From an uncultured Geobacteraceae bacterium (GTDB taxonomy: Bacteria > Desulfobacterota > Desulfuromonadia > Geobacterales > CAIOGM01): a stretch of DNA of 41,293 bases. The stretch is taken from positions 1-41,293 of the forward strand of contig CAIUUR010000219.1 of the NCBI GenBank assembly GCA_903902345.1. The letters run 5' to 3'. Made by a program: the position numbers and the translations under genes. The notes under the pieces were generated by a model. The model ran no database searches. It saw nothing but the letters and a program-made list of their open reading frames with translations, and was not told where the DNA came from. This document shows, piece after piece, positions 1,298 to 40,579 of the stretch. Each line of letters opens with the position of its first letter. Position 1 is the stretch's first letter.

Positions 1298-4200
1298 TTA
1301 AACTGACAGGGTCGGAGGCAACTGCTTCAGTCCTTCCAACACCGGCGTGAGGGTGGCTATAAGAACCTCCAGACAGTGTTCGATCTCATCCCGATCTTCC
1401 CGCTTCAGGGCCTGTTCCAGAGCATTGGCCGTAGCAGACACATCGGTAACCGCCAAGTTGGCCGCGACCCCTCGCAGGTCGTGAGCCATATGTCGCGCCA
1501 GCTCAAAATTTCCTGCCGTCACCGTTGCACACAGAATTGTCGACCCTTCGGACCACTCACTACGGAAAATCAGCAGTAACTCCTGAAGCAATTCCCGATT
1601 GCCCGCAAGCCGGACCAACCCCGCAGCCAGATCGATACCGGGAAGCGTTGCGGGTAATTCCGGGACAGAAATATCCTCTTCTGAGGGGGCTTCATCATGG
1701 CTGCGTGGCGCCAGCCACCGGGAAAGGACCGTCAACAGGGCCATAGGATCGATGGGCTTGGCGACGTGATCGTCCATACCGATTGCCAGACAGTGACGAC
1801 GAACGTCTTCCAGTGCGTGAGCGGTCATGGCGATGATCGGCAGATCGATAAGCCCCAGTTCATTCCGGATGATCCGGGTCAATTCGAAACCATCCATCTC
1901 CGGCATCTGAAGATCCGTAAGAACCACGGTGTAACGCCCGGGATCTGCGCGAAGGATTTCCAGCGCCGTGCGCCCATCACCGACAACCGTCACGGTCAGC
2001 CCGAAACCTTCGAGTATTTCCCGGGCCACCTGCTGGTTGATGTCGTTGTCTTCCACCAGCAGCGCCCGCGCCCTGGCCAAGGTGTGGTGCGTCGCTTCGA
2101 CGGTGGTTCCCGGTGCTCCCGAGGCAGGCAGGGCGGCGAACTCCTCACCGGCGTCAGAGGTATCCAGAGTAAACGGCAGAAGAACCGTAAAAATACTTCC
2201 GACACCGGGGGTGCTCTCAACATGGATATCCCCATCCATAAGGTCCACCAGTTTCCGGCTTATGGTCAGTCCCAGCCCGGTGCCTCCGTAGCGGCGGGTA
2301 GTGGAACTGTCGGCCTGGGAAAACGCCTCAAACAGCCGGGCCAACTGGGCCGGCAGGAGGCCGATACCGGTGTCTTGCACCGTGAAGCGGAGCCGGACCT
2401 GGTCGCCGGTTTGAGCCTCCGGCGTTACCGTGACGTTTACTTCACCCTGCTCCGTAAACTTGACGGCGTTGATGACCAGGTTGAGGAGAATCTGTCCCAG
2501 GCGGAGGGGATCACCCACCAGGCGACGCGGAACAGCCGGATCACGCCGGAAGAGCAGCGCTACCCCCTTATCCTCGGCCTTCAGATACACCATGGCTGAG
2601 ATCTTATCCAGCGTCGATTCCAGGCTGAAGGGGATCTGTTCCAGCTCCAGTCGATCCGCTTCGATCTTGGACAGATCCAGGATATCGTTGATGAGTCCCA
2701 GGAGTGACTGCCCCGAAATCCCGATCTTCTGGAGGTAATCCTGTTGTTGCGGCGTCAGATTTGTCCGGAGAGCCAGGTGGGTCAGGCCAATGACAGCATT
2801 CAGGGGGGTGCGAATCTCGTGGCTCATGTTGGCCAGGAACGCGCTCTTGGCAAGATTGGCAGCATCCGCCGCCTCCTTCGCCGTGGCCAGTTCCTCCTCG
2901 GCCTGCTTGCGTTCGGTAACGCTCCACACGGCCTCCATTAACAACGAGGTCTGGAGCATGTCGGTTTCGTCGTAATCGGTTTCCTTGTTTGCGATACCCA
3001 CCACGCCGATGATGCGGTTGCCGCGAAAAACGGGGATTGACATAAACTTTAACAGCTGAACATGACCTGGAGGGCACCCTTTTTTTAACGGATTGTCGGC
3101 TTGAACATCGTTGACCACAATCGGACGGCGTTGCCGGACGACTTCACCCCATAAACCGGTACGGTCCAACTCGTAGCACGTTTGGGGATTCGCCACGGCG
3201 CATTCCGGCATGACCTCCTTGGACCAGGTGTTGAGGACAAACTCCCTGCGATCTTCATGATAGTGGTAAATGTAGCCAAATTTGCTTTCAGTCAGTTGCA
3301 GCGCTTGCGCCAGGGCATAATCGAGAAATCCCTGTATGGTTTCGGCCGGATGCTGGAGGATATCAACCAACCGTTGCAAGCGGGCTTCGTTGCGCAGCAC
3401 CTCTTTTTCCGCCCGCTTCCGTTCACTGATGTCGCGCCAGGTGGTAAAGAGTGCCTCTTTCCCGTCCAGGCAAAGCGCCGCAATGGAAACCTCCACCAGG
3501 AATTCCGTGCCGTCCCGGCAGCGATGAACCCACTCAAAGTTGCAACTTCCGCGCTGCAAGGCCAGGTTTATCATTTCCCGAGACAGCGCCGCCGAGGTTC
3601 TGCCATCGGGCTGAAATTCGGGAGAGAGTCCGTCCGGCGCAAGACCGATAATCTCCCACCGGTCGGCTCGCAGCATAATTTCGGCGGCCTGGTTGCAGTC
3701 TACAAAAATACCGTCACAGATGATGAGATAGGCATCCGGCGAATCCATGAAGAGGATACGATATTTTTCTTCCTTTTCACGGAGCGCCGCCTCGCTACTC
3801 TCCCGCTGGGCGTTGCTCTTGCGCAGCGCCCCGGAGAGCCTGGCAAAACGGACCGCCACCAGAACAGCGATCAGCAGCAAAAGGGCAACGACGGCCACTA
3901 TACCATACAGCCAAGACAAATCATTGGGCTTGGGATCATAGAGAAAACCCTTCAGGTCGAAGCTCCGCTTCAGCATCCCCATGCCGGCATAGACTTCGGC
4001 GATGTTGCGCCACCGGCCCGGGTTCATATGGCCGACTTCTACAAGCTCCGTCTGGAGCAGGGGCGCCATCTGCCGGGCCTCGAACCGGAGGTGCTCCAGG
4101 GTGTGCCGCTTGCTGTAGCGGTTATAAATGAGCCGGGCCAGTTCCTCCTGATGCTGCATGGCGTACTCCCAACCCTTGAGACTCGCCTCCCGGAATTTTT

Positions 4201-4888
4201 TGACCAGCTCAGGCTTTTTCCGGACTAATTCCTCGGTGGTAAAGAGATTGTCGCCATAGAAATCGATCCCCACGGCCCGGGGTGAATAGAGAAGGTACTC
4301 CTGTCCGGCCGCCTCCAGGGCAAAGGGTTCATCGGTAACATAGACGGAAATAGCCTCCACTGCTCCCGAAAGCAACTCCTGAACGCCAAAGGAATGAGGC
4401 GACAGGGTGAACTTGTCTGAGGCGATCCCCTCGTTCTTCAGGTAGGCGTGGAGTTCCGCCGATCCGGGCTCGATCATGACCTTTTGGCCTGCCAGGTCAT
4501 GGATGCTCTGGACGCCGTGATGTTTCAGATTCATAAGCGCCAGGGGGGAGTGCTGGAAGATGGCCGCCAGGACCACCACCGGCGCCCCCTGTTCCCGTGA
4601 CAGCAGCAGTTCCGTGGAGCCTACGCCGAACTCGGCCTTCCCTTGCACAACCTGCCCCACCGGGTCCTCCCCCGGTCGGGCGGGAAGAATTTCCACCTCC
4701 AGTCCGGCGTTCCGGTAATACCCCTGTTCCTGGGCCGCATAGTAGCCGGCGAACTGGAACTGGTGCTGCCATTTCAGTTGCAGCCGCACCTTGTCGGCCC
4801 CCTGGGCGGTAAGGGGCATCAGGAAGAGCGCCACCAGCGCCAGGTAGCGATAGATCAGATTCATGGCAGGTTTTTTTTCACCATTCAC
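1298..4888 (-). CDS. Hybrid sensor histidine kinase: NMT1/THI5-like periplasmic sensor, PAS, GAF, HisKA, HATPase, receiver, Hpt
   Basis: This 1196-residue phosphorelay protein sits in the inner membrane. After a signal segment (MNLIYRYLALVALFL) comes an NMT1/SsuA-like solute-binding domain (about 34-320, LKWQHQFQFAGYYAA), one membrane helix (about 325-350), a short coiled coil, a PAS domain (about 378-495) and a GAF domain (about 512-670). The kinase core has the H-box SHEIRTPL near residue 698 and ATP-lid motifs DTGIGL and GGTGLGL. A receiver (VLTDLQMPEMDG) and a C-terminal Hpt domain (AHDLRGVAANL) complete an internal relay. NMT1 domains bind small molecules such as pyrimidine precursors or sulfonates; the ligand here is unknown. 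The GTG at 4888 overlaps the stop of the PEP-CTERM gene by GTGA, and an ATG at 4864 is an alternative start with a cleaner signal peptide. No DNA-binding output is present, so a partner regulator is expected. Confidence 0.9.
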   Translation of the reverse strand: MNGEKKPAMNLIYRYLALVALFLMPLTAQGADKVRLQLKWQHQFQFAGYYAAQEQGYYRNAGLEVEILPARPGEDPVGQVVQGKAEFGVGSTELLLSREQGAPVVVLAAIFQHSPLALMNLKHHGVQSIHDLAGQKVMIEPGSAELHAYLKNEGIASDKFTLSPHSFGVQELLSGAVEAISVYVTDEPFALEAAGQEYLLYSPRAVGIDFYGDNLFTTEELVRKKPELVKKFREASLKGWEYAMQHQEELARLIYNRYSKRHTLEHLRFEARQMAPLLQTELVEVGHMNPGRWRNIAEVYAGMGMLKRSFDLKGFLYDPKPNDLSWLYGIVAVVALLLLIAVLVAVRFARLSGALRKSNAQRESSEAALREKEEKYRILFMDSPDAYLIICDGIFVDCNQAAEIMLRADRWEIIGLAPDGLSPEFQPDGRTSAALSREMINLALQRGSCNFEWVHRCRDGTEFLVEVSIAALCLDGKEALFTTWRDISERKRAEKEVLRNEARLQRLVDILQHPAETIQGFLDYALAQALQLTESKFGYIYHYHEDRREFVLNTWSKEVMPECAVANPQTCYELDRTGLWGEVVRQRRPIVVNDVQADNPLKKGCPPGHVQLLKFMSIPVFRGNRIIGVVGIANKETDYDETDMLQTSLLMEAVWSVTERKQAEEELATAKEAADAANLAKSAFLANMSHEIRTPLNAVIGLTHLALRTNLTPQQQDYLQKIGISGQSLLGLINDILDLSKIEADRLELEQIPFSLESTLDKISAMVYLKAEDKGVALLFRRDPAVPRRLVGDPLRLGQILLNLVINAVKFTEQGEVNVTVTPEAQTGDQVRLRFTVQDTGIGLLPAQLARLFEAFSQADSSTTRRYGGTGLGLTISRKLVDLMDGDIHVESTPGVGSIFTVLLPFTLDTSDAGEEFAALPASGAPGTTVEATHHTLARARALLVEDNDINQQVAREILEGFGLTVTVVGDGRTALEILRADPGRYTVVLTDLQMPEMDGFELTRIIRNELGLIDLPIIAMTAHALEDVRRHCLAIGMDDHVAKPIDPMALLTVLSRWLAPRSHDEAPSEEDISVPELPATLPGIDLAAGLVRLAGNRELLQELLLIFRSEWSEGSTILCATVTAGNFELARHMAHDLRGVAANLAVTDVSATANALEQALKREDRDEIEHCLEVLIATLTPVLEGLKQLPPTLSV

Positions 4889-14085: not shown

Positions 14086-15072
14086 ATGCAGATAGCCAAT
14101 CCCATCTACGATGTCGTCTTCAAACACCTCATGGAAGACGCGAAGATTGCCAAGTTATTGATCTCCTCCATCATCGGTGAGGAAATTGAAACTCTTGAAT
14201 TCCGGCCACAGGAATTTACTGCGGATATCGACAGAGAGAGAATTGAGGGACGATTCGGCCTGTTGACGGTGTATCGCCTTGATTTCAGCGCGACGATTAA
14301 GACCGGTGAGGGTCTGAAACAGGTCTTGATCGAGATCCAAAAGGCAAAATTCGCCACGGACATCATGCGTTTCAGGGGGTATCTTGGGAGCCAGTACAGC
14401 AACAAAAAAATAGAGACAATCAATAATCATGAGAGACGAATCGGTATACCGATCATCGGCATATACTTTCTGGGACATACGCTTGACAGTACCGATGCGT
14501 CGATAATCGGCGTTAATCGCGCCTACAAGGATCTGGTGACCGGTGAACAGTTGACGGTAAAGGAGAGTTTCATCGAAAATCTGACCCATGACAGCTACGT
14601 GATCCAGATCCCGAATTTGGTGCAGAAACGTCGCAATGATCTGGAAAAGCTTTTGAGCATATTTGACCAGAGTACATATGTTGACGCGGAACATCATATT
14701 TTGAACATCAAGGAAGAAGATTATCCGGAGAAGCACCGTTCACTCATCCGCCGTTTACAATCAGCGATACTTGAACCCGAAATGAGAAAGCAGATGGAGA
14801 TTGAAGACGGCATCCTCGGCGAATTTGAGGATATGCAGCGTCAGATAATGCAAAAAACGCAGGAAACGGCTGATGCCAAACGAGAGGCAGACGAGGCAAG
14901 GCAGGAAATAGCTGAAATCAAGCGGGAGGCCAAAGAGAGAAGCGCCGAAGCCGAGCGTGAGGCGGGCGAAGCCGGGAAAAAAATCGCACGCGACCTTAAA
15001 ACCGCGGGTGTTGCCGTAACGATTATCATGCAGGCGACAGGTTTGAGCCGGGAAGAGGTGGAGAATTGTTGA
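14086..15072 (+). CDS. Rpn family recombination-promoting nuclease / putative transposase
   Basis: A complete 328-residue protein. The N-terminal 200 residues are the PD-(D/E)XK Rpn/YhgA-like domain, with candidate catalytic residues D66 (VYRLDFSA) and E83-I-Q85 (LIEIQKAK). The segment LTVKESFIENLTHDSYVIQI lies before a helical part, and residues about 235-310 form a long charged coiled coil (repeats of AKREADEAR). AAAGGAG precedes the ATG. The E. coli relatives are DNA endonucleases that raise RecA-independent recombination. A near copy lies at 1-594, and about 145 bp of 5' flank are shared. An inverted repeat GTTACGGTGTAAC at 13998-14010 lies in that flank. The duplicated 46 bp of the next gene on its left side suggests arrival by a duplicating recombination event. 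Confidence 0.9.
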   Translation: MQIANPIYDVVFKHLMEDAKIAKLLISSIIGEEIETLEFRPQEFTADIDRERIEGRFGLLTVYRLDFSATIKTGEGLKQVLIEIQKAKFATDIMRFRGYLGSQYSNKKIETINNHERRIGIPIIGIYFLGHTLDSTDASIIGVNRAYKDLVTGEQLTVKESFIENLTHDSYVIQIPNLVQKRRNDLEKLLSIFDQSTYVDAEHHILNIKEEDYPEKHRSLIRRLQSAILEPEMRKQMEIEDGILGEFEDMQRQIMQKTQETADAKREADEARQEIAEIKREAKERSAEAEREAGEAGKKIARDLKTAGVAVTIIMQATGLSREEVENC

Positions 15073-15093: not shown

Positions 15094-15648
15094 TCACCCT
15101 CTCTGCCACTCCCGCATCCGGTCCAGACGGAGGATGTACTGTTTTTCCTGCCTGATCCGCTCCTGATGCCAAGTCCAGAGATGGTAGGCTTCCAGGGAGA
15201 GGATGGTGACTCCGGCCGCCAGCACCGCGTAGAAGTTGTCATCCAGGGTATGCCCGAGATGGTAGAAAAGGTAGAAGACGGTAAGATACCCCAGATGGGA
15301 CAACCCCGAAAAGGCGCCGCTCCCCGACGTCATCCTCCCCAGAATCAGGATCAATGCCGCAAAACTGTAGACCACAAGGAGACCGCTGATCATCTTTGCC
15401 GAGGGGGGAGCACCCAGGAACTGCCGGGCGGAAGGGGAGAAATCGGGGAGCAGGGCGAACCACCGCTGGACGGCGAGACTTATCCCCAGGAAGAGGGCCA
15501 GATACCAGACTCCCCGCAGGGAGCGCCGCTGATACTCCTTGATGCGCACCGCCGCCTCCCGGCGCGCCTGCTGGATACCTTCCGGCGTACCGGGCAGGAG
15601 GGCATCGCGGAGACATTCCGTTGTCGACTTTCCGCTCCGAATACTCAT
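15094..15648 (-). CDS. Small integral membrane protein of unknown function, last gene of the cytochrome operon
   Basis: 184 residues without a family I can name. A charged N-terminus with helix-rich sequence (RREAAVRIKEYQRRS) is followed by four hydrophobic segments, around GVWYLALFLGISLAV, KMISGLLVVYSFAALILIL, LGYLTVFYLFYHLGH and FYAVLAAGVTILSLEAYHLW. The tail is basic (KQYILRLDRMREWQRG). The His-containing helices could bind a cofactor but no clear motif is present. Its ATG overlaps the stop of the heme/HAMP gene by four bases, so it belongs to the cytochrome operon. The last 46 bp are duplicated at 13889-13934. Confidence 0.75.
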   Translation of the reverse strand: MSIRSGKSTTECLRDALLPGTPEGIQQARREAAVRIKEYQRRSLRGVWYLALFLGISLAVQRWFALLPDFSPSARQFLGAPPSAKMISGLLVVYSFAALILILGRMTSGSGAFSGLSHLGYLTVFYLFYHLGHTLDDNFYAVLAAGVTILSLEAYHLWTWHQERIRQEKQYILRLDRMREWQRG

Positions 15649-16457
15649 GCTCCCGGTTTTTTCCCGGACTCGGCGCCGGAGGAATCGGCAAGCTCCTTGA
15701 GGGTCCGACCGATACTCTCCAGCTCGTCATCCAGTTCGGGGGGTTGAACATCCTTATGCCCGGCGGCAAGCTCCAGGGCGTAGGCGGTCAACCGTTGCAG
15801 CGGCAGAAAGAGACTGCGCCGCAGGATGGCCGAAACACCGGCGATCGTGAGAAAGAGAACCATCACGCTGAAGAGCCCCATACGTCCCCGAAGTGAGGCC
15901 AGGGTCGCCTGAAGAGTTTTCTGGGAAAGTCCGATATCAAGGGTTCCCAGCACCTTCTGGGAAGCGGGGTGAACATGACATGGTGCGGTAAAGCAATCGG
16001 GTTCGTTGTAGATGGGAGCGGTAATGGCGAGGACCGTTTCGCCCCGTTCGTTCCGGTAGCGCCGCGCCTGCTGCATGCTCCCCATGGTTGCCACCGGTGT
16101 CGCCCCCGCATGGCAGATGATACACCCCTCGCTGTTCCGGTCCACCTGACGGTTGATCTCTTCCGGATGGGAGGAGAACATGATCCCCCCCCGCTTGTTG
16201 AAGATCCGGACCTGCTCCACGTCCTGCTGGGCGCCGACGGTGGTGACGATGTTTTTGATCGTCGCCCGGTCCCCCTTGAGCATGGCATACCGGGTGGAGC
16301 GGACGACGGTCTGGGCCAGAGCGGTCTCATGGCGTACGGCGTCCTGGATCATATCCTGCTTGATCGCCTGGTAGAGAAGTGTGCAGCAGATCACCACGAA
16401 TCCGGTTACCGTGATGGTTACCGGAACAATGGCCCTCCCGCTCAACGACATTCCCAT
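15645..16457 (-). CDS. Membrane-anchored heme-binding HAMP protein without output domain
   Basis: 270 residues: membrane helix (about 8-29), periplasmic domain (30-190), second helix (193-212) and a HAMP-like segment with RSLFLPLQRLTAYALELAAG, ending soon after. The periplasmic part has one standard heme c site C112-I-I-C-H116 and a second C155-F-T-A-P-C160-H161, which is CX4CH. This is the layout of the heme-c sensor domains of Geobacter chemoreceptors and kinases, but no kinase, methyl-accepting or cyclase domain follows. The ATG at 16457 is preceded by AAGGAGG, which decides the start. It sits between the dodecaheme cytochrome and a small membrane protein. It may act as a redox sensor with a separate partner or as an electron-transfer subunit; neither is shown. 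Confidence 0.8.
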   Translation of the reverse strand: MGMSLSGRAIVPVTITVTGFVVICCTLLYQAIKQDMIQDAVRHETALAQTVVRSTRYAMLKGDRATIKNIVTTVGAQQDVEQVRIFNKRGGIMFSSHPEEINRQVDRNSEGCIICHAGATPVATMGSMQQARRYRNERGETVLAITAPIYNEPDCFTAPCHVHPASQKVLGTLDIGLSQKTLQATLASLRGRMGLFSVMVLFLTIAGVSAILRRSLFLPLQRLTAYALELAAGHKDVQPPELDDELESIGRTLKELADSSGAESGKKPGA

Positions 16458-16481
16458 CTCATCCTCCTTCCTCAAACGCCT

Positions 16482-17453
16482 TTAGTGGCAGAAGCCGCAG
16501 CTGGCCGTCACCGGAAATGCCACCCTGCCATTATGGCAGACGCCGCACGATTTCCCCTTCTCCATGGCCGCCATCCCCACCGGCTTCCCCCCCTTGAGGG
16601 AATACAGTTTCGGATGGCAGATTTTGCATCCGTATGTGGCGAGATGCACCTTGTGACTGAACCGGGCCGGGGAGAGTTCCTTGGCCGGGAAGGTCAGCTC
16701 CTTCACCGGATGACACCTGGCGCATTCCCCCACGTCAAAGGCAACCTTGCCATCATGGCAGGCGCCGCACGACTTTCCCTGATCCATGGCCGCCATCCCC
16801 ATCCGTCTCCCCTTCACGTACCGGTAGATCTTCGGATGGCACTCCCGGCAGGACTGGCGTCCGGAATGGTTCTGATGGGTGAAGGTGACGGGACCGGTTT
16901 CCCGCACCGTGAAGATGATATCCGTAACGGTATGACATCGGGCGCACTCCGCCAGAGCAAAAGCCTTGCTACCGTCGTGGCAGGCTCCGCATGATTTTCC
17001 CTGCTCCATGGCCGTCATCCCCACCGGCCGGTTCTTACCGGCAGTGAAGGTGGACGGATGACAGGCAGCACAACTACTCCGGGCGGCGTGCGCCTGGTGA
17101 GTGAATGCCACCGCCTTGCTCCCCTTGACCTTCAGTGCGAGATTTTTCACCGGATGGCATTTGCTGCAGTTGGCCAGGGGAAATGCGCTCCGGCCGTCAT
17201 GGCAGGCGCCGCACGATTTCCCCTGCTCCATTTCCGCCATGGTATGCCGCACCGGATGCACCATGTCGAAGAGCTTGTCATGGCAGGCCCGACAGTCGTT
17301 TTTCTGTTTTCCCGTGACGATATGACCGTTGTGGCTGAAGAGCACACTCCCCAGTTCCTTGGTTTTGAAGGTGACATCCCTCAGTTCAAGGGCAAAGAGC
17401 GGAGTAGGACGCCACGCAGCCAAGAGCGCCAGGAGCAGGAGGAAAATTCTCAT
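16482..17453 (-). CDS. Dodecaheme c-type cytochrome of four triheme c7-type repeats
   Basis: A periplasmic cytochrome of 323 residues with 12 CXXCH motifs. After a signal peptide ([14 protein letters not shown]...LFA) the protein consists of four repeats of about 70-75 residues, each with the pattern FSH/FTH-x2-H, CxxCH, a GKSCGACHDG block and a third CxxCH. This is the nanowire-type triheme repeat (TIGR04257-like). The same heme count and repeat number are known in the Geobacter 12-heme proteins GSU1996 and GSU0592, though orthology is not tested here. The start has GAGGAGG upstream and overlaps the cytochrome b stop by four bases. The likely role is to accept electrons from the upstream b/c pair and carry them across the periplasm. 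Confidence 0.92.
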   Translation of the reverse strand: MRIFLLLLALLAAWRPTPLFALELRDVTFKTKELGSVLFSHNGHIVTGKQKNDCRACHDKLFDMVHPVRHTMAEMEQGKSCGACHDGRSAFPLANCSKCHPVKNLALKVKGSKAVAFTHQAHAARSSCAACHPSTFTAGKNRPVGMTAMEQGKSCGACHDGSKAFALAECARCHTVTDIIFTVRETGPVTFTHQNHSGRQSCRECHPKIYRYVKGRRMGMAAMDQGKSCGACHDGKVAFDVGECARCHPVKELTFPAKELSPARFSHKVHLATYGCKICHPKLYSLKGGKPVGMAAMEKGKSCGVCHNGRVAFPVTASCGFCH

Positions 17454-18088
17454 GGTTTATCCTCCTCTTCTTCCCATCCTGTCCACATACTCCTGGTGTG
17501 GGCAAAGGGGGTGTGGCCCAGGGTCGCCAGATAGACATGAATAAAGAGAAAGGCAATGAAACAACAGGCGATGAGAAAATGGAACCCATCCAGCAGCTTG
17601 AGACCTCCCATGGCGATGATGACCTCGCGCAGCGGCCCGATGTTCATGATGAGGAATCCGGAGAAGATCACCAGCGGCAGGAGAAGAAGCATGATCATCA
17701 GGTAGGTCACCTTCTGCAGGGGGTTGAACTTGTTCTCCGGGGTCGGCGTATGGGGGTTGGGCTTGCCGAAGAAATAGTAGAAAAAATAGAAGATCGCCTG
17801 CCGGAAGAGTCCATACTTCAGATCCTCCACGGTGGGAACATAGATCTTCAGGAGGGTTCCCGTGACGAAGATGTAATAGGCCATCCAGAGGAGATAGGAG
17901 ATGGAGACCACGATCCCGGCGGTGTTATGAAGGCTCACGGCCCCCTTGTAGCTTCCGAAGAGATTCAGTAATTCGGGCCAGCGGATCTGGATCCCCGTGA
18001 GAGTCAGGGTGACGATCCCCAGGGCATTGAGCCAGTGCCAGATCCGGATGGGGGTCGGATTGAGGTAGATCTTATGCTTCCGGGTCAT
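17450..18088 (-). CDS. Cytochrome b561/b6-type membrane subunit
   Basis: 212 residues with at least four membrane helices and paired histidines typical of di-heme cytochromes b of the Ni,Fe-hydrogenase/formate dehydrogenase/thiosulfate reductase class: [34 protein letters not shown], and [21 protein letters not shown] quinone-interacting role is expected by family. It lies between a heptaheme c-type cytochrome (17-bp overlap) and the dodecaheme protein (4-bp overlap), an arrangement resembling the Cbc-type inner membrane complexes of Geobacter. AAAGGAG precedes the ATG. Confidence 0.88.
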
Positions 18089-19151
18089 GGTGAGGCTCCT
18101 TTCTGTTCTTCCGGGTCAGAAACCGGAGCGTACCGTGGCACAGCGGCACCATCGCCCCGCAGGCCACGATGGCGAGTCCGATGATGCTGAGAGTGGAACT
18201 CCGTGACGTCCCCATCATATAAAAATCAGGAGTACCGTAGAGGAGATCCAGGACCGCCCCCTTCTCCACCGGCACCCGGATCGACCGCCCCTCCTGGTCG
18301 GGGAGCGCCACATAACTGGTCTGGAGGGCCCCGGAGCCCGAGGCATGACAGAAGGTGCAGTCCCACCGGTTCTTGAGGATCTGATAGGTGTGGGTGATCT
18401 TTTCCGGCATCATCATCCCCCAGAGACGCATCCCCCTGGTGGCGGCGTCACGATGGAATTTTCTCAGCTCTTCCAGGGAGACGATGCCGTCACCGTTCGC
18501 ATCGATCACCCTGGCCAACGGGGTCCCCCCCCCGGGGAGCAGCGAAGCCAACTCGTCATGGGTGGCGGGGATATAGCCATGCTCCCCCTTCTCCCCATGG
18601 CGGGTCTGAATATAGAGGTTGATGACGTACTGCTCCGACCCGGTGTGGCAGGTGATGCAGGGGAGCGCGGTAATGTGCAGTTGCGCCTGGGGGAGCCATA
18701 ACGCATGTTTTTTGATTGTCCTGGCGTTATCATGGCAGCGGGCGCAGGGAATGTTCATGTCGGCGCCGGAAACCACCTCCGCAGGGCGGGCGGTGTGGGG
18801 ATTGTGGCAATCCGGGCAACCGGCCTTCTCGGCATGGATACCGCTCAAATATTCCTGCACTACGGGGAGATGACACTCCTTGCAGGATGCCCGTGACGGA
18901 CGGAGCGCGTCGCCGGGATGCCGGGAGGTGACGGAATCATGGCAGGAGGAACAGCCGATACGGGAATGAGTCGTGGCGGCGAATTTGCGGGGATCGATGT
19001 ACAGATACCCCTTTCCGCTGCTGATGACGCTCCGGCTACCGTGGCAATGGAGACACTGGTCTCCTGCGGCAACAACCGTCGGAAGAAATCCGGCAGTTGC
19101 CACGGCCAGCAGGACGGCTAACATGGTGACAACAACGCGTGACTGGTGCAC
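18072..19151 (-). CDS. Membrane-anchored heptaheme c-type cytochrome with EF-hand
   Basis: 359 residues from a GTG at 19151, chosen because AAGGAGG lies six bases before it and a signal peptide ([19 protein letters not shown]) follows. Seven CXXCH motifs are present: CLHCH, CSSCH, CKECH, CPDCH, CARCH, CITCH and CTFCH. Between hemes six and seven a calcium-binding EF-hand loop, [12 protein letters not shown] (about 218-229), is inserted in an otherwise heme-free stretch. A C-terminal helix (about 320-338) anchors it in the inner membrane with a basic cytoplasmic tail. It overlaps the cytochrome b gene, its probable partner, and starts the five-gene operon. The frame stays open for another 114 codons upstream, which I regard as noncoding. 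Confidence 0.87.
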
Positions 19152-19809: not shown

Positions 19810-19918
19810 GATTTCGTTGGCTTTTTTACCGGCAGAATCTCCCCCCATCAAAATTGAATATCCCATCCGTTGGAAATTGGTATAGAATAAACCTCATTAC
19901 AACGCGATGAGGCCGGCA

Positions 19919-21340
19919 ATGGAACGAAGCAGGATTCTGGTGGTGGATGATGAAGCAGTAATCCGTGAAGGGGTAAAGCGGATACTGGAGCGGAACGGCA
20001 TGGACGTTACCGCCAACTCCGGCGGCCGCGCCGCCCTGGCAACCATTCAGGAGACGGACTTCGACCTGGTGGTCACCGACCTGAAAATGCCGGGGATGAA
20101 CGGCATCGAGCTCCTCAAGGCAATCAAGATCCTCCAGCCCGAGGTGCCGGTCATCATTATCACGGGCTATTCCACGGTGGACACCGCCGTGGAGGCGATG
20201 AAGAGCGGAGCCTTTGATTACATCGCCAAGCCGTTCACCCCGGAACAACTCACCGAGAAGGTCGCCAAGGCCCTGGCGCAAAAAGAAGCTGTCACCGAGA
20301 ATCTCCTCCTTAAAAAAGAGCTGAAGGAACACCACGGATTCGACCTCTTCGTGGGAGAAAGCAAGGAGATGCAGAAGATCTACCGGCGGATCCTTCAGGT
20401 AGCCCCCACGGACAGCACCGTCCTCATCACCGGGGAGAGCGGCACCGGCAAGGAGGTGGTGGCCCGGGCCATCCACCGCAACAGCCCCCGCCGGGACGAC
20501 CCCTTCGTGGCTGTGGACTGCACCTCCCTGGCGGAAAACCTCCTGGAGAGCGAACTTTTCGGCCACATCAAGGGCTCCTTCACCGGCGCCATCCAGAGCA
20601 AGACCGGCCTCTTCAAGGTGGCCGACGGCGGCACCCTCTTCCTGGATGAGGTGGCCAACATCTCCCTCACGACACAGGCGAAACTCCTTCGGGTCCTTCA
20701 AGAGCGGGAGATCACCCCCATCGGCGGGACCCATGGGGTGAAGATCGATATCCGCTTGGTCGCCGCCACCAACAAGAATCTCCGGATTTTGGTGGAAGAG
20801 GGTAAATTCCGGGAGGATCTGGTCTTCCGGCTGAACATCATTCCCATCGACCTTCCACCGCTGCGTGAGCGGAAAGGGGATCTCCCCCTCCTCATCACCC
20901 ACTTCCTTCAGAAGTTCGCCACCTCCATGGGGAGGGAACTGTACGGACTCTCCGCCGAAGCAAGAACGTTTCTGGAAAACTACGCTTTTCCCGGCAATGT
21001 GCGGGAGGTGGAGAACATCATCGAGCGGGCGGTGGTTCTGGCCGAGGGAAACCTGATCCAGCTGGAGGACCTGGAGTTGGGGCATGCCTGTGTCCTGAAA
21101 CCCCGGAGTCAACAGACGGAAAACCTTCCCCCTGCCACTCTGGAAGAGTTAAAGGAAGCCAAGCGTCTCATCCGGGAGAAGGCCCTGGAGGAGGTGGAGA
21201 AGGCTTTTGTGGTGGCGGCTCTGGAACGAAACCATGGGAACATCACCCGGGCCGCCGAAGAAACGGGGATGCTCCGCCCCAACTTTCAGGCGCTCATCAA
21301 GAAACTGGGGATCTCGGGACGGGATTATGCCGACGGGTAA
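19919..21340 (+). CDS. NtrC-family sigma-54-dependent response regulator
   Basis: 473 residues from the ATG at 19919 (GAGG seven bases upstream; an ATG at 19907 has no site). Receiver domain with D54 in VVTDLKMPGMNG and the K of AKPF; AAA+ domain with Walker A GESGTGKE (172-179), the sigma-54 contact loop as GSFTGA (219-224) rather than GAFTGA, Walker B GGTLFLDE, and an arginine-finger region (FREDLVFRLNIIPI). The C-terminus is a Fis-type helix-turn-helix (GNITRAAEETGMLRPNFQAL). It has no kinase beside it and is followed after 10 bp by recO. It is one candidate activator for sigma-54 promoters such as that at 6353-6368, without direct evidence. Confidence 0.94.
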   Translation: MERSRILVVDDEAVIREGVKRILERNGMDVTANSGGRAALATIQETDFDLVVTDLKMPGMNGIELLKAIKILQPEVPVIIITGYSTVDTAVEAMKSGAFDYIAKPFTPEQLTEKVAKALAQKEAVTENLLLKKELKEHHGFDLFVGESKEMQKIYRRILQVAPTDSTVLITGESGTGKEVVARAIHRNSPRRDDPFVAVDCTSLAENLLESELFGHIKGSFTGAIQSKTGLFKVADGGTLFLDEVANISLTTQAKLLRVLQEREITPIGGTHGVKIDIRLVAATNKNLRILVEEGKFREDLVFRLNIIPIDLPPLRERKGDLPLLITHFLQKFATSMGRELYGLSAEARTFLENYAFPGNVREVENIIERAVVLAEGNLIQLEDLELGHACVLKPRSQQTENLPPATLEELKEAKRLIREKALEEVEKAFVVAALERNHGNITRAAEETGMLRPNFQALIKKLGISGRDYADG

Positions 21341-30659: not shown

Positions 30660-31946
30660 TTACAGCCTCCAGACCTGAACTCCGCTTTTCAGCAACTCTT
30701 CACGGTCGTAGATTCCCTTCACATCCATGAGAACCGGATTACCGTAAGTCAGATGACAAATATCACTGACGCTGAGCGCCCGGAACTCGGCATGGGCGAC
30801 AGCCACCACCACCGCCACTGCCGGTTTCAACGCATTCAGCGGTGTCAGAGTTACCCCGTATTCGTGCTCCGCCTCGTGGGGATCAGCCTGGGGATCACAC
30901 ACCTGCACCTGTATCCCGTACTCCTCCAACTCCGCGATAATATCCACCACCCGGGTGTTCCTGACGTCGGGACAATCCTCCTTAAAAGTAAGCCCCAGCA
31001 TGGTGACACGGCAACCGACAATGTTGTGCCCGGCGCGAACCATCTCCTTGATGGTCTGACGGGCGATGAAGGTCCCCATGCTGTCGTTGATCCGGCGTCC
31101 GGCCAGAATCACCTGTGGGATGTAGCCGACTTTTTCCGCCTTGTGAGTCAGGTAGTAGGGGTCGACCCCGATACAGTGCCCCCCCACCAGACCGGGACGA
31201 AATTTGAGGAAGTTCCACTTGGTCCCGGCGGCATCCAGCACCTCATTGGTGTCGATCCCCAACCGATCAAAGATCAGCGCCAGTTCGTTCATGAGGGCGA
31301 TATTCAGGTCACGCTGGGTATTTTCAATGACCTTGGCGGCCTCCGCCACCTTAATGGTACTGGCCCGATGAACTCCGGCAGTGACAACGGACTCGTAGAC
31401 CCGGGCCACGGCCTCCAGCGTGGGAGCATCCTGCCCCGATACCACCTTCATGATCGTGGTGAAGGTGTGCTCCTTATCGCCGGGATTGATCCGCTCCGGG
31501 CTGTAACCCACCGTAAAATCTACCCCGCAGGTCAACCCTGAAACCTTTTCCAAAACGGGAACACACTCCTCTTCGGTGGCGCCGGGGTAGACCGTTGACT
31601 CATAGACAACGATATCCCCAGCCTTCAGCGCCTGCCCCACACTCTCCGACGCCTTCAGGACCAGCCCCAGATCAGGAACATGGGCCTCATCCACCGGAGT
31701 GGGGACCGCCACGATATGAAAATCGGCCGAGCGCAGATCGTCGATCCGGTCGGTGAAGAGGATGTCGGCATCGGCCAACTCCTGGGCCGTCACCTCCCCG
31801 GTCCGGTCGTAGCCGCTTTTAAGCTCTTCTATCCTGAGCGGATTGATATCGAACCCCACAGTCCGCCTGACCTTGCCGAAGGCGATAGCCACCGGCAATC
31901 CCACATACCCCAACCCCACTACGGAGATAATCCTCACTCTGCTCAT
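30660..31946 (-). CDS. Nucleotide sugar dehydrogenase, WbpO/TviB type
   Basis: 428 residues. NAD-binding GLGYVG at 11-16, YESTVYPGATEE, VGYSPERINPGDKEH, and the catalytic cysteine C258 in GGHCIGVDPYYL are all present, followed by the C-terminal UDP-binding domain (LGLTFKEDCPDVRN). The family oxidises UDP-GlcNAc or UDP-GalNAc to the uronic acid using two NAD+. The ATG at 31946 follows GGAGGGGGATCG; a reading 54 bp longer runs almost into epsI without a ribosome site. Lies between epsI and the epimerase gene, all in one direction, and should supply acidic sugar for an exopolysaccharide linked to exosortase. Confidence 0.9.
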   Translation of the reverse strand: MSRVRIISVVGLGYVGLPVAIAFGKVRRTVGFDINPLRIEELKSGYDRTGEVTAQELADADILFTDRIDDLRSADFHIVAVPTPVDEAHVPDLGLVLKASESVGQALKAGDIVVYESTVYPGATEEECVPVLEKVSGLTCGVDFTVGYSPERINPGDKEHTFTTIMKVVSGQDAPTLEAVARVYESVVTAGVHRASTIKVAEAAKVIENTQRDLNIALMNELALIFDRLGIDTNEVLDAAGTKWNFLKFRPGLVGGHCIGVDPYYLTHKAEKVGYIPQVILAGRRINDSMGTFIARQTIKEMVRAGHNIVGCRVTMLGLTFKEDCPDVRNTRVVDIIAELEEYGIQVQVCDPQADPHEAEHEYGVTLTPLNALKPAVAVVVAVAHAEFRALSVSDICHLTYGNPVLMDVKGIYDREELLKSGVQVWRL

Positions 31947-32006
31947 ACGATCCCCCTCCCCCTCGTCCTTTTCGCCGTAGATCTCCATCCAGGGAGACAA
32001 CGGTGA

Positions 32007-32642
32007 TTACGAGGGAAGAAACTTTTGAAATAGTGGATAAAAATCCTGGATAAACGTATTCGCTGCGACGAATTGTCCTTCCACGTCCCCCTCGAAGGCA
32101 ATGGATATCCTGACAAAGGTGGCATCCCGCCGCCGGGAGGTGATGGAACTACGTATCTGAGCCAACTTCAACCCGATCTCACTGGCAATCACCTCATCTC
32201 CCGGCGCCCGGAACCAGTAGACGAAAAGCTCCTTCTGCCCCCCCTTCTGGTACACCGCTTGAACCACGGGAAACTCTTTCCCCCCCGCCTTCAGGGTGAC
32301 CACCCGTTCTGACAGTTTAAGCCATCCCCCTCCGGGGAGGCAATGTTTAGGGGAATGGATCTCCCCTCCCCCCTTGCCGCCGCCATGGTACCCAAGATAA
32401 AGATTCACCTTTTCTCCCCGGGCGTTGACATACAGAGCGGAGAGATAATCGGTGGGCTTGAGAACTTCCAGGACTTCCTTGCTGAACTCCCCCCGGGTTA
32501 ACTGGCGCCATTGGCCGTTGGTGGCGGGGAAATCCGCCAGGGGGATATTCGCCGGGACGGTGATGTCCTTGTGTATGTTTATGTAGAGACCCACCGCCGC
32601 CAGAAGGAGGTAAATAACCAGGAACCGCCATCTCTTGATCAT
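32007..32642 (-). CDS. epsI: EpsI family protein, exosortase-associated
   Basis: 211 residues with one N-terminal membrane helix (FLVIYLLLAAVGLYI) and a periplasmic domain. Typical EpsI features are PLADFPATNGQW, TDYLSALYVNARGEKVNLYL, GGGEIHSPKHCLPGGGW with the invariant H-S-P-x-x-C-L-P-G-x-G-W, and KELFVYWFRAPGD. EpsI is encoded beside, or fused to, exosortases in EPS-producing Gram-negative bacteria; its biochemical role is not settled. The ATG overlaps the exosortase stop by four bases. Confidence 0.9.
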   Translation of the reverse strand: MIKRWRFLVIYLLLAAVGLYINIHKDITVPANIPLADFPATNGQWRQLTRGEFSKEVLEVLKPTDYLSALYVNARGEKVNLYLGYHGGGKGGGEIHSPKHCLPGGGWLKLSERVVTLKAGGKEFPVVQAVYQKGGQKELFVYWFRAPGDEVIASEIGLKLAQIRSSITSRRRDATFVRISIAFEGDVEGQFVAANTFIQDFYPLFQKFLPS

Positions 32643-33475
32643 TTTCTCCCCCTGTCCATGAGTGCTCCCAGTCCGGCCAGCAGCATGAGCGCCACAGCAA
32701 AAACCGCCAGCCCGGCAAATTCATGAAAGAAACCCTCCGCCGCCTTTGCCCCCCAGTACTGGGCCAGGATTCCGGTCCCCATGACCCGGACCCCGTTGGT
32801 AAGAATAGCTATGGGAATCGCTGCAATGATCATGATCACTCGCTTCATTGTCCCCTTCTGGGTGATGAGGGCAAATGCCGCCGCCAGAGCCAGCAGGGAG
32901 ACCAGTGACCGGATACCGCTGCAGGCGTCGGCCACCTCCAGCGTCGTCTCCGGCAGGATGAGGATATTTCCCTCCCGGATGATGATCACCCCCATGAGTT
33001 GCAGAGCCTCCACGGAGTATTTAGCCACCAGTTGTTTGAGAGGAAAGGCGATGGAATCGTAGACGATGTAGGGGAGCGGCACCATGAAGAACAGGTAGAG
33101 CACCGGCAGGAGCAGTATCCGGAACACCTTCATCCCGAAGAAGAAGAGAATCAACCCTGCAAGAAGAACAATAAGGGATGACCGCATGGTGTATAATTCA
33201 AAGGCGAGATACCCCACACAAAGTTGCAAAAGGCCAACGAGAATGATCACCATGCCCAACGAAGCAGGCGCCGATTCCGCACTCATCAGCTCTTCACGCC
33301 GCTCATAGATGAAATAGCCGGCGATGATCGGTACGATGAATCCATGGGAGTAATTGGGATCATTATACCACTGATCCACCATGAACGGCACGATGTTGTA
33401 GTACATCAGGACGAACAGGGGGAGGAGCAATAGGTATGAGTAACGATACGACCTGAGACTTTCTGCAAACGTCAT
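32639..33475 (-). CDS. Exosortase (XrtA/EpsH-like transpeptidase)
   Basis: 278 residues with about eight membrane helices. The catalytic triad is visible as C185 (VADACSGIRSL), R230 (TNGVRVMGTG) and H251 (FFHEFAG), each in the expected conserved block, with NYSHGFIVPI near the N-terminus. Exosortases cut and transfer proteins carrying PEP-CTERM signals. Two such substrates, with VPEPSTYALL tails, are encoded at 4885-6284. It heads the operon with epsI and sugar-nucleotide genes. The exact subtype (A or another) cannot be fixed by eye. An inverted repeat (GGGTGC/GCACCC, 33498-33520) lies in the short leader. Confidence 0.92.
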   Translation of the reverse strand: MTFAESLRSYRYSYLLLLPLFVLMYYNIVPFMVDQWYNDPNYSHGFIVPIIAGYFIYERREELMSAESAPASLGMVIILVGLLQLCVGYLAFELYTMRSSLIVLLAGLILFFFGMKVFRILLLPVLYLFFMVPLPYIVYDSIAFPLKQLVAKYSVEALQLMGVIIIREGNILILPETTLEVADACSGIRSLVSLLALAAAFALITQKGTMKRVIMIIAAIPIAILTNGVRVMGTGILAQYWGAKAAEGFFHEFAGLAVFAVALMLLAGLGALMDRGRK

Positions 33476-38938: not shown

Positions 38939-40579
38939 ATGTTTTGTAACCAGTGCGAACAGGCATCAAAGGGAGTAGGCTGCGACATTCAGGGAGTATG
39001 CGGCAAGGATCCCCAGACGGCGGCATTGCAGGACCTGCTGATCTTCGGGCTCAAGGGTTTGGCCATCTACGCCAACGCCGCCCGGCAACTGGGCGCCAAG
39101 GACGATATCCTGGACATCTTCGTGGTGGAATCCCTCTTCACCACCGTCACCAATGTGGACTTCGACCCGGCCAACATCGCCGCCAAGGTCCGCCAATGCC
39201 ACACCAACCAACTGAAGGCAAAGAGCCTCTACGAAGCCGCCTACAGCGCCAAGAACGGCGGCGTAGCCCCGGCCATCGTCAATGACTACCTGGGGTGGGT
39301 TCCGGCCGCCGACCTGGCCGGTCTTGTGAAACAGGGAGAGGAACACGGGATCAACACCCAGCACGCCGATGAGGACGTCCGCTCCACCATTGAGATCCTG
39401 GTCTACGGACTCAAGGGGATGGCGGCCTATATGGATCACGCTCTCATCCTGGGGAAAAGCGACGAGGAGATTCTCGCCTTCTTCCAGAAGGGTTTGGCCG
39501 CCACCACCGACCCGAATCTGGGGCTCATGGATTTCGTCGGCCTCTGCATGGAATGCGGCCGGCTGAACCTGAGGACCATGGAGATTCTCAGCCAGGCTCA
39601 CATCGAGAAGTTCGGCGCCCCCACCCCCACCCCGGTGAACCTGGGAACCCGCGCCGGCAAGGGGATTCTCGTCTCCGGCCACGACCTGAAGATGTTGGAA
39701 GAGCTCCTCAAGCAGACCGAAGGGAAGGGGATCAACATCTACACCCATGGCGAGATGCTCCCGGCTCACGGCTACCCCGGCCTCAAGAAGTACTCCCATC
39801 TTGTGGCCAACTATGGCGGCGCCTGGCAGGACCAAGCCAAGGAGTTCCCGCTCTTCCCCGGCGCCATCATCTTCAACACCAACTGCATCCAGCGCCCCGC
39901 CACCACCTACCTGGACCGGCTCTACTCCTGGGGACTCGTTCAGTGGCCCGGCGTGAAGCATGTGGAAGGGTGGGACTTCAGTGAAGTCATCGCCAAGGCG
40001 CTGGAGTGCCCCGACCTTCCCGAGGCTCCCGGCCAGGAGATCCTCACCGGCTTCGGCCACAACGCGGTCCTGGGGGTTGCCGACAAGGTCATCGCCGGAG
40101 TGAAGGCGGGAGCCATCCGCCACTTCTTCCTCATCGGCGGCTGCGACGGCGCTAAGCCGGGGCGCAACTACTTCACCGAATTCGCCGAGCAGGTTCCCAA
40201 GGATTGTGTCATCCTGACCCTGGCCTGCGGCAAGTACCGCTTCAACAAGCTGGAGTTCGGCGACATCGGCGGCATCCCGCGCCTTCTGGATGTGGGGCAG
40301 TGCAACGACGCCTACTCCGCCATCCAGATCGCCGTGGCCCTGGCCGGCGCCTTCGATTGCGGGGTCAATGACCTCCCCCTCTCCCTCATCATCTCCTGGT
40401 ACGAGCAGAAGGCGGTGGTCATTCTCCTGACGCTCCTCCACCTGGGGATCAAGAACATCAAGATCGGTCCGGCCCTGCCGGCCTTCGTCTCCCCCAACGT
40501 CCTCAACTTCCTGGTGGCGAACTTCAACCTCTCCCCCATCGGCACCGCTGAAGGGGATCTGAAGCAGATCCTGGGGTAG
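38939..40579 (+). CDS. hcp: Hydroxylamine reductase / hybrid cluster protein
   Basis: 546 residues. The N-terminal cysteines C3-X2-C6-X8-C15-X5-C21 bind a [4Fe-4S] cluster as in the Desulfovibrio type. Further blocks ligate the hybrid Fe-S-O cluster: GLCMECGRLNL, ETEKG-like HGEMLPAHGYP, FNTNCIQRP, GGCDGAKPGRNYF, LACGKYRFNK and GGIPRLLDVGQCND. Hcp reduces NO (and hydroxylamine in vitro) and protects against nitrosative stress under anaerobic conditions. A strong site, AAAGGAG, precedes the ATG. The gene is monocistronic: its own promoter with FNR-like operator upstream, a strong terminator downstream. No hcr reductase gene is adjacent. Confidence 0.96.
   Translation: MFCNQCEQASKGVGCDIQGVCGKDPQTAALQDLLIFGLKGLAIYANAARQLGAKDDILDIFVVESLFTTVTNVDFDPANIAAKVRQCHTNQLKAKSLYEAAYSAKNGGVAPAIVNDYLGWVPAADLAGLVKQGEEHGINTQHADEDVRSTIEILVYGLKGMAAYMDHALILGKSDEEILAFFQKGLAATTDPNLGLMDFVGLCMECGRLNLRTMEILSQAHIEKFGAPTPTPVNLGTRAGKGILVSGHDLKMLEELLKQTEGKGINIYTHGEMLPAHGYPGLKKYSHLVANYGGAWQDQAKEFPLFPGAIIFNTNCIQRPATTYLDRLYSWGLVQWPGVKHVEGWDFSEVIAKALECPDLPEAPGQEILTGFGHNAVLGVADKVIAGVKAGAIRHFFLIGGCDGAKPGRNYFTEFAEQVPKDCVILTLACGKYRFNKLEFGDIGGIPRLLDVGQCNDAYSAIQIAVALAGAFDCGVNDLPLSLIISWYEQKAVVILLTLLHLGIKNIKIGPALPAFVSPNVLNFLVANFNLSPIGTAEGDLKQILG

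Follow-up and report, generated by a model that had tools for sequence, protein, structure and literature searches.

Geobacter switches the quinol oxidase of its inner membrane with redox potential. The described system closest to the locus considered here is Cbc5/CbcBA, a menaquinol:cytochrome c oxidoreductase. Cbc5 is listed with exactly five kinds of subunit, namely a heptaheme c-type cytochrome, a b-type cytochrome, a dodecaheme c-type cytochrome, a further c-type cytochrome, and a membrane protein (PMC11434368). CbcBA was reported to be in use near -0.2 V (PMC10553843, PMC12307469), and cbcBA to be upregulated more than 30-fold during electrode reduction (PMC6148476). The 12-heme protein GSU0592 is conserved in six Geobacter genomes (PMC2825233), and GSU0591, OmcQ, and GSU0594 are among the proteins detected in proteomes (PMC7894505, PMC8691401). 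Here, we describe a five-gene operon, cbcEDCBA, on a 41,293-nucleotide stretch of DNA from an uncultured Geobacteraceae bacterium (contig CAIUUR010000219.1; the whole stretch is referred to as the window). The cluster itself is known. What was not found in the open-access papers searched is the kinship of one of its products, CbcD, with the sensor domains of heme c proteins, and the finding that CbcD travels with a histidine kinase carrying two c-heme motifs (K) rather than with the respiratory enzyme.

The second point of comparison is provided by GSU0935 and GSU0582, heme c sensors of the PAS-like/Cache type. Both bind heme and undergo a redox-linked change of spin state, and in GSU0935, the spin state of which changes with redox state, the heme ligands are His144 and Met60 (PMC8396549). 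The two sensors crystallise as swapped dimers. GSU0591 and GSU0599 were described as the two transducers of Geobacter sulfurreducens with two c-heme motifs (PMC8396549, PMC3831638). From gene number and motifs, GSU0591 probably corresponds to CbcD and GSU0599 to K.

The cbcEDCBA operon and Cbc5

An earlier, sequence-only reading of the window had called five reading frames, which were confirmed on the minus strand with unchanged coordinates. These are listed below, together with a divergent regulator gene upstream of the operon (window numbering; the single letters are used for homologues as well).

cbcA (A), 18072..19151, minus strand: heptaheme c-type cytochrome (7 CXXCH), with an EF-hand loop and an anchor to the membrane at its C-terminus
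cbcB (B), 17450..18088, minus strand: di-heme b-type cytochrome of the b561 kind (PF01292, E 2.1e-25)
cbcC (omcQ) (C), 16482..17453, minus strand: dodecaheme cytochrome with four triheme repeats (12 CXXCH; TIGR04257 in four stretches, E 1.3e-95)
cbcD (D), 15645..16457, minus strand: predicted two-helix heme sensor with CXXCH and CX4CH, a weak HAMP, and no output domain
cbcE (E), 15094..15648, minus strand: small all-helical membrane protein (AlphaFold model, mean predicted local distance difference test score (pLDDT) 83.6)
R, 19907..21340, plus strand: sigma-54-dependent response regulator (Response_reg, Sigma54_activat, HTH_8)

The start of cbcA, a GTG at 19151, was taken over from the sequence-only reading, and the anchor of its product is a hydrophobic C-terminal stretch. 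All 34 of the homologues compared retain His 18, 54, 170, and 184 of CbcB, as the binding of two hemes would require. The open frame of cbcD reaches upstream to a TTG at 16475 (15645-16475); its start is probably the ATG at 16457 (270 residues), because close homologues begin there, which leaves a gap of 24 nucleotides between cbcC and cbcD. The other gene ends overlap, by 17 nucleotides for A/B and by 4 nucleotides for both B/C and D/E. CbcE matched no Pfam or NCBIfam family, and its modelled fold found no match in the PDB at E <= 0.001. A homologue of R adjoins the operon across relatives.

The gene order, heme counts, and domains agree with the description of the GSU0590-GSU0594 cluster, and on these grounds the operon is a further member of the known Cbc5 menaquinol-to-periplasm cytochrome cluster, with the five subunit kinds in the order A-B-C-D-E. 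Nothing essential differs from Geobacter Cbc5 (CbcBA, OmcQ), except that, in the window's genus, operon and kinase gene are separated. Judged by CbcD, the nearest relatives with a name are uncultured Geobacter and Desulfuromonadales bins. The sequence-only reading had proposed a quinol-to-periplasm wire with a redox-sensing or calcium-responsive subunit, and had recognised no described complex in this arrangement. The wire is supported by the presumed orthology to Cbc5/CbcBA, and redox sensing indirectly, by the fold, heme motif, and aligned Met that CbcD appears to share with heme redox sensors. The claim of novelty was mistaken, since Cbc5 is listed with the same subunit kinds (PMC11434368), and the calcium response did not find support. 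Calcium control through the EF-hand of CbcA was considered and rejected: the loop, of 12 residues in the window (EF-hand_5, 21.8 bits, below the Pfam cut-off of 25.9), is conserved, though with some variation, whether or not the cluster contains D (36 CbcA examined), which suits a structural site. A strict EF-hand pattern flagged 18 of the 36, mainly since the residue after the second Asp varies.

Kinship of CbcD with heme c sensors

The two heme motifs of CbcD sit between its two membrane helices. In the AlphaFold model (mean pLDDT 74.3, with lower values in the loops that carry the heme motifs), a Cache/PDC fold is predicted between these helices, as in the sensors of histidine kinases. The model matched the WalK sensor (4ywz) with Z 13.0 and a root-mean-square deviation (rmsd) of 2.4 over 133 aligned residues, and CitA (8biy) with Z 11.2 and an rmsd of 2.8 over 115 residues. 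3B42 and 3B47 did not appear in the listed structural matches, an absence that does not count against kinship; by sequence, the only solved structure matched by D was 3B47, and weakly so (E 0.73). Profile matches of CbcD were to sensor domains and HAMP only. Among 31 D proteins, Mcp40H-20_sensor (PF21563) was matched at E <= 0.01 in 28 and HAMP in ten; the D of the window scored 25.0 against PF21563, under the curated cut-off of 27, and its HAMP is borderline (24.8 bits versus a cut-off of 25). An output domain, whether of the methyl-accepting chemotaxis protein (MCP) or the kinase type, was found in none of the 31, and D was therefore filed as kin of the sensor domain of GSU0935 and GSU0582 and not as a whole chemoreceptor.

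Searches of relatives with D recovered a second protein, K, mostly of 518-558 residues. It is a histidine kinase (HAMP, HisKA, and HATPase domains in P0007), and its CXXCH and CX4CH are in register with those of D. Compared with this two-heme sensor kinase of the GSU0599 type, D shares both heme motifs and ends after its weak HAMP. When 55 D, 50 K, and 14 third-tier sensors were aligned, the one heme motif of the chemoreceptor-type sensors coincided with the second motif of D and K. This motif is present in all D and K, mostly as CX4CH and in a few with other spacing. An upstream Met was found in every D, in every K that covers the position, and, with the heme-less L135 as the sole exception, in the third-tier sensors. 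D thus has a c-heme motif and a putative distal Met at the positions known from GSU0935 and GSU0582, and a Cache-type fold is predicted for it as for them, but it differs from both in that the shared heme site reads CX4CH instead of CXXCH, and in having an extra CXXCH heme motif and no output domain. The equivalence of its Met to Met60 is drawn from the alignment together with the weak match to 3B47.

The first CXXCH is absent from the D of seven loci (L144-L147, L150, L156, L157) and from the K of two (L140, L142). The losses in D and K never coincide where both proteins were seen, in numbers too small for a claim. Two further two-heme kinase-like proteins (L127:717-2303, plus strand; L128:1433-3016, minus strand) stand on very long branches beside K.

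In a tree of 115 sequences built from the sensor region alone, one branch, with Shimodaira-Hasegawa (SH) support of 1.0, has the 55 D on one side and every K and MCP-type sensor on the other. An earlier tree of 119 sequences gave the D split a support of 99, except that L135, a long branch, was placed among D. Given this single, well-supported branch in the sensor phylogeny, D is one old family and not a set of local kinase truncations.

Linkage with the kinase and exchange of quinol modules

Matches across 195 genomes of the class were obtained for D in 149 (E <= 1e-18), for K in 145 (E <= 1e-80), and for CbcB in 126 (E <= 1e-45). A genome was counted as D-bearing only with a match better than 1e-40, by which 143 of the 195 bear an output-less D. 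D and K were both present in 139 genomes, with D only in 4, K only in 6, and neither in 46; the corresponding counts for D and CbcB were 117, 26 (D only), 9 (CbcB only), and 43. Fisher values for these counts disregard kinship among the genomes and were set aside. Among the K-only genomes, G192 does hold a D of 217 residues, and in G138, G176, G197, and G199 contigs end at the expected D site. Among the D-only genomes, G019 has a K-like frame of 392 residues, and G156 and G182 are incomplete, with short contigs. D and K lie on one contig in 106 of the 138 genomes with both, in all 106 within 20 kb, whereas CbcB is on the contig of D in 82 of 116 cases and lies within 5 kb of D in 59 of these 116.

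Fifty-six D loci were mapped after the removal of duplicates. CbcA or CbcB lies within 6 kb of D at 22 of them, and at 28 D stands beside a different module, S-F-N, which consists of a pentaheme cytochrome (S), a ferredoxin with a twin-arginine translocation signal (F), and a large membrane protein (N) that is NrfD-like by eye only, Pfam having given no match. At two of the S-F-N loci (L149, L159), an A-B-E' set lies further upstream. Neither quinol module was found at six loci (L069, L072, L074, L095, L108, L121); L095 is at a contig edge, and CbcA and CbcB of the same genome are at the edge of another contig (L096). A CbcC-type cytochrome accompanies D at 19 of the 22 A-B loci and 14 of the 28 S-F-N loci, and E comes immediately after D at 50 of the 56. 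The unit that stays constant is D-E-K-R, whereas the quinol module is exchangeable and CbcC is optional. The sequence-only reading had made its case depend on the conservation of the five genes together in relatives, and this holds in part: D and E stay with the kinase and regulator, but A and B are replaced by the other quinol module at half of the D loci.

In composition, S-F-N is like Cbc4 (cbcSTU), which is described as a cytochrome/iron-sulfur/membrane set (PMC11434368), but, unlike Cbc4, it is encoded with C-D-E or D-E plus the K/R pair. No printed account of the D-E-K-R unit or its two quinol modules was found in the open-access papers searched.

The pattern extends beyond the class. 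Of 148 genomes sampled from the phylum, 42 gave a match, and in nine of these an output-less D was present. Six of the nine lie outside the class (L168-L173), and all six combine D with E, K, and R. Four of them have S-F-N, or F-N where the contig ends, L172 has A-B but no C, and one is cut by the end of the contig. Nine CbcAB-E' clusters without D were read in detail (L076, L079, L085, L089, L091, L097, L102, L106, L110). Eight of them adjoin a different sigma-54 regulator and a kinase of 767-789 residues without heme motifs, and the ninth, L110, is cut and less clear. At L158, A and B occur with an 18-heme version of CbcC (L158:6556-8130, minus strand) and without D, in a genome without K.

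Three solo D genes lie away from quinol modules (L072:7542-8216, minus strand; L074:7380-8060, minus strand; L069:7797-8669, plus strand). Two solo D proteins, of 224 and 226 residues, stop after the second membrane helix, with HAMP absent. A 1079-residue protein is encoded nearby at all three loci, the copy at L074 with GAF and SpoIIE domains. A small receiver-only-like protein is encoded upstream of S-F-N at L075:8574-8984, L078:10754-11155, L084:9559-9960, and L171:949-1332.

Possible roles of CbcD

The reading that we put first, with about even confidence, is that of a quinol-to-periplasm conduit in which CbcD serves as a redox-sensing accessory of the K/sigma-54 system. By homology and from the published descriptions, CbcB would take electrons from menaquinol and hand them on via CbcA to periplasmic cytochromes, with CbcC as an optional triheme-repeat relay. 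CbcD would be a membrane-anchored heme sensor, encoded as a separate gene with CbcE beside the K/sigma-54 regulator pair. By analogy with GSU0935, redox state would most likely govern the distal ligation of its CX4CH heme by the conserved Met, and CbcD would use the redox state of the heme to modulate K. The simplest route would be a mixed D:K oligomer, which would be silent with only one kinase half. Since the GSU0935 and GSU0582 sensors form swapped dimers, a mixed D:K dimer is the simplest decoy model, and if such a pair is silent, expression of the operon would damp its own induction. Contact within the membrane or the periplasm is favoured, because the HAMP of D is weak and sometimes absent. 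Throughout, D is presumed to be loaded with heme, to switch with redox state, and to contact K, and the direction of its effect is presumed as well. A more tentative and rather unlikely extension is that D-E-K-R acts as a plug-in redox-control cassette on two unrelated quinol oxidoreductases (CbcAB and the pentaheme/ferredoxin/NrfD-like set), with CbcD as an output-less heme decoy in silent D:K pairs, so that the operon would gauge how oxidised or reduced its electron path is and hold down its own expression.

Several observations weigh against a sensing role of CbcD beside K. The case is built on kinship, shared motifs, co-occurrence, linkage, and exchange of the quinol module, with contact between D and K as a supposition. 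In the K-only genome G064, D is absent on an 18-kb stretch, the single clear exception, and no K was found in the D-only genome G035. In the window's own genome, K lies on a separate 4.5-kb contig (L113), and in three genus neighbours it is also apart from the operon. Most of the other matches in the phylum sample are K-like kinases without D, and K does not need D. Signalling through the cytoplasmic end of D itself is doubtful, the HAMP being weak in D and absent in some, and a second c-heme is kept in most lineages, as an electron carrier might keep it. No good sigma-54 site was found upstream of cbcA in the window; a scan for sigma-54 promoters, made with uncurated start codons, gave 4 of 46 first genes at p <= 0.05, no better than chance. 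Finally, CbcD has been counted among the three c-type cytochromes of Cbc5 (PMC11434368).

This last classification is also the starting point for a different account, which is possible, if on the unlikely side, and by which CbcD is an electron-transfer subunit of Cbc5, its c-hemes linking CbcA/CbcB to CbcC or to PpcA-type cytochromes and its sensor fold reflecting ancestry only. The detection of GSU0591 as a cytochrome in proteomes (PMC7894505, PMC8691401) is consistent with it. The position of cbcD inside the operon, with overlapping ends, suits such a subunit, but D remains where S-F-N replaces A-B, A-B clusters with other regulators lack D, and D tracks K more closely than it tracks CbcB. 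A HAMP that is weak, and missing in some, speaks for a wire subunit; the loss of the first heme from D at seven loci speaks against one, and the conserved switch-type Met is a feature of sensors.

It is improbable that CbcD and CbcE form a redox-driven gate of the quinol enzyme, acting through the HAMP stretch and E without an effect on transcription. The tight succession of D and E, in operons with either quinol module, would fit a gate; however, A-B is followed by E-like proteins even where D is missing, many D have a weak HAMP or none, and the pairing of D with K is left unaccounted for. It is scarcely credible that CbcD has no function and is what is left of a decaying kinase or chemoreceptor, or that it results from a sequencing error, as the weak HAMP and the absent output domain might suggest, because D is conserved, as an open, output-less frame in 143 of 195 genomes, with its heme motif and Met kept, and as one old family rather than through repeated truncation of local kinases. 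A frameshift-broken kinase or MCP, which the sequence-only reading had named as a possible refutation, with the output domain lost by a sequence error, is ruled out by the same 143 genomes of the class and by the absence of such a domain from all 31 D proteins.

With CbcD placed first as a redox-sensing accessory of K, the linkage nominates the heme kinase K and its output-less relative CbcD as a sensing pair, and the way in which potential is measured becomes testable. It also gives reason not to class CbcD as a wire subunit before that has been tested. Induction of cbcBA reportedly depends on the regulator BccR (Joshi 2021), which probably corresponds to R, and is not known to have a named sensor. 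In the open-access papers searched, nothing was found on GSU0598, on BccR with Geobacter, or on CbcBA with a histidine kinase and redox potential, nor was a printed account linking CbcD, the kinase, and Cbc5 found there, most subscription papers lying outside the search.

Other genes of the window were noted in passing. Just past the end of the operon, and convergent with it, a 328-residue protein with a long charged coiled tail is encoded at 14086-15072 (plus strand); it gave no Pfam match at E <= 1e-5. A hybrid sensor kinase with an NMT1/THI5-like binding domain and GAF, PAS, HisKA, HATPase, receiver, and Hpt domains lies at 1298-4888 (minus strand). At 30660-33475 (minus strand), a UDP-sugar dehydrogenase is encoded near an exosortase (EpsH type), perhaps as part of a polysaccharide cluster, and a hybrid-cluster (prismane) protein is encoded at 38939-40579 (plus strand).

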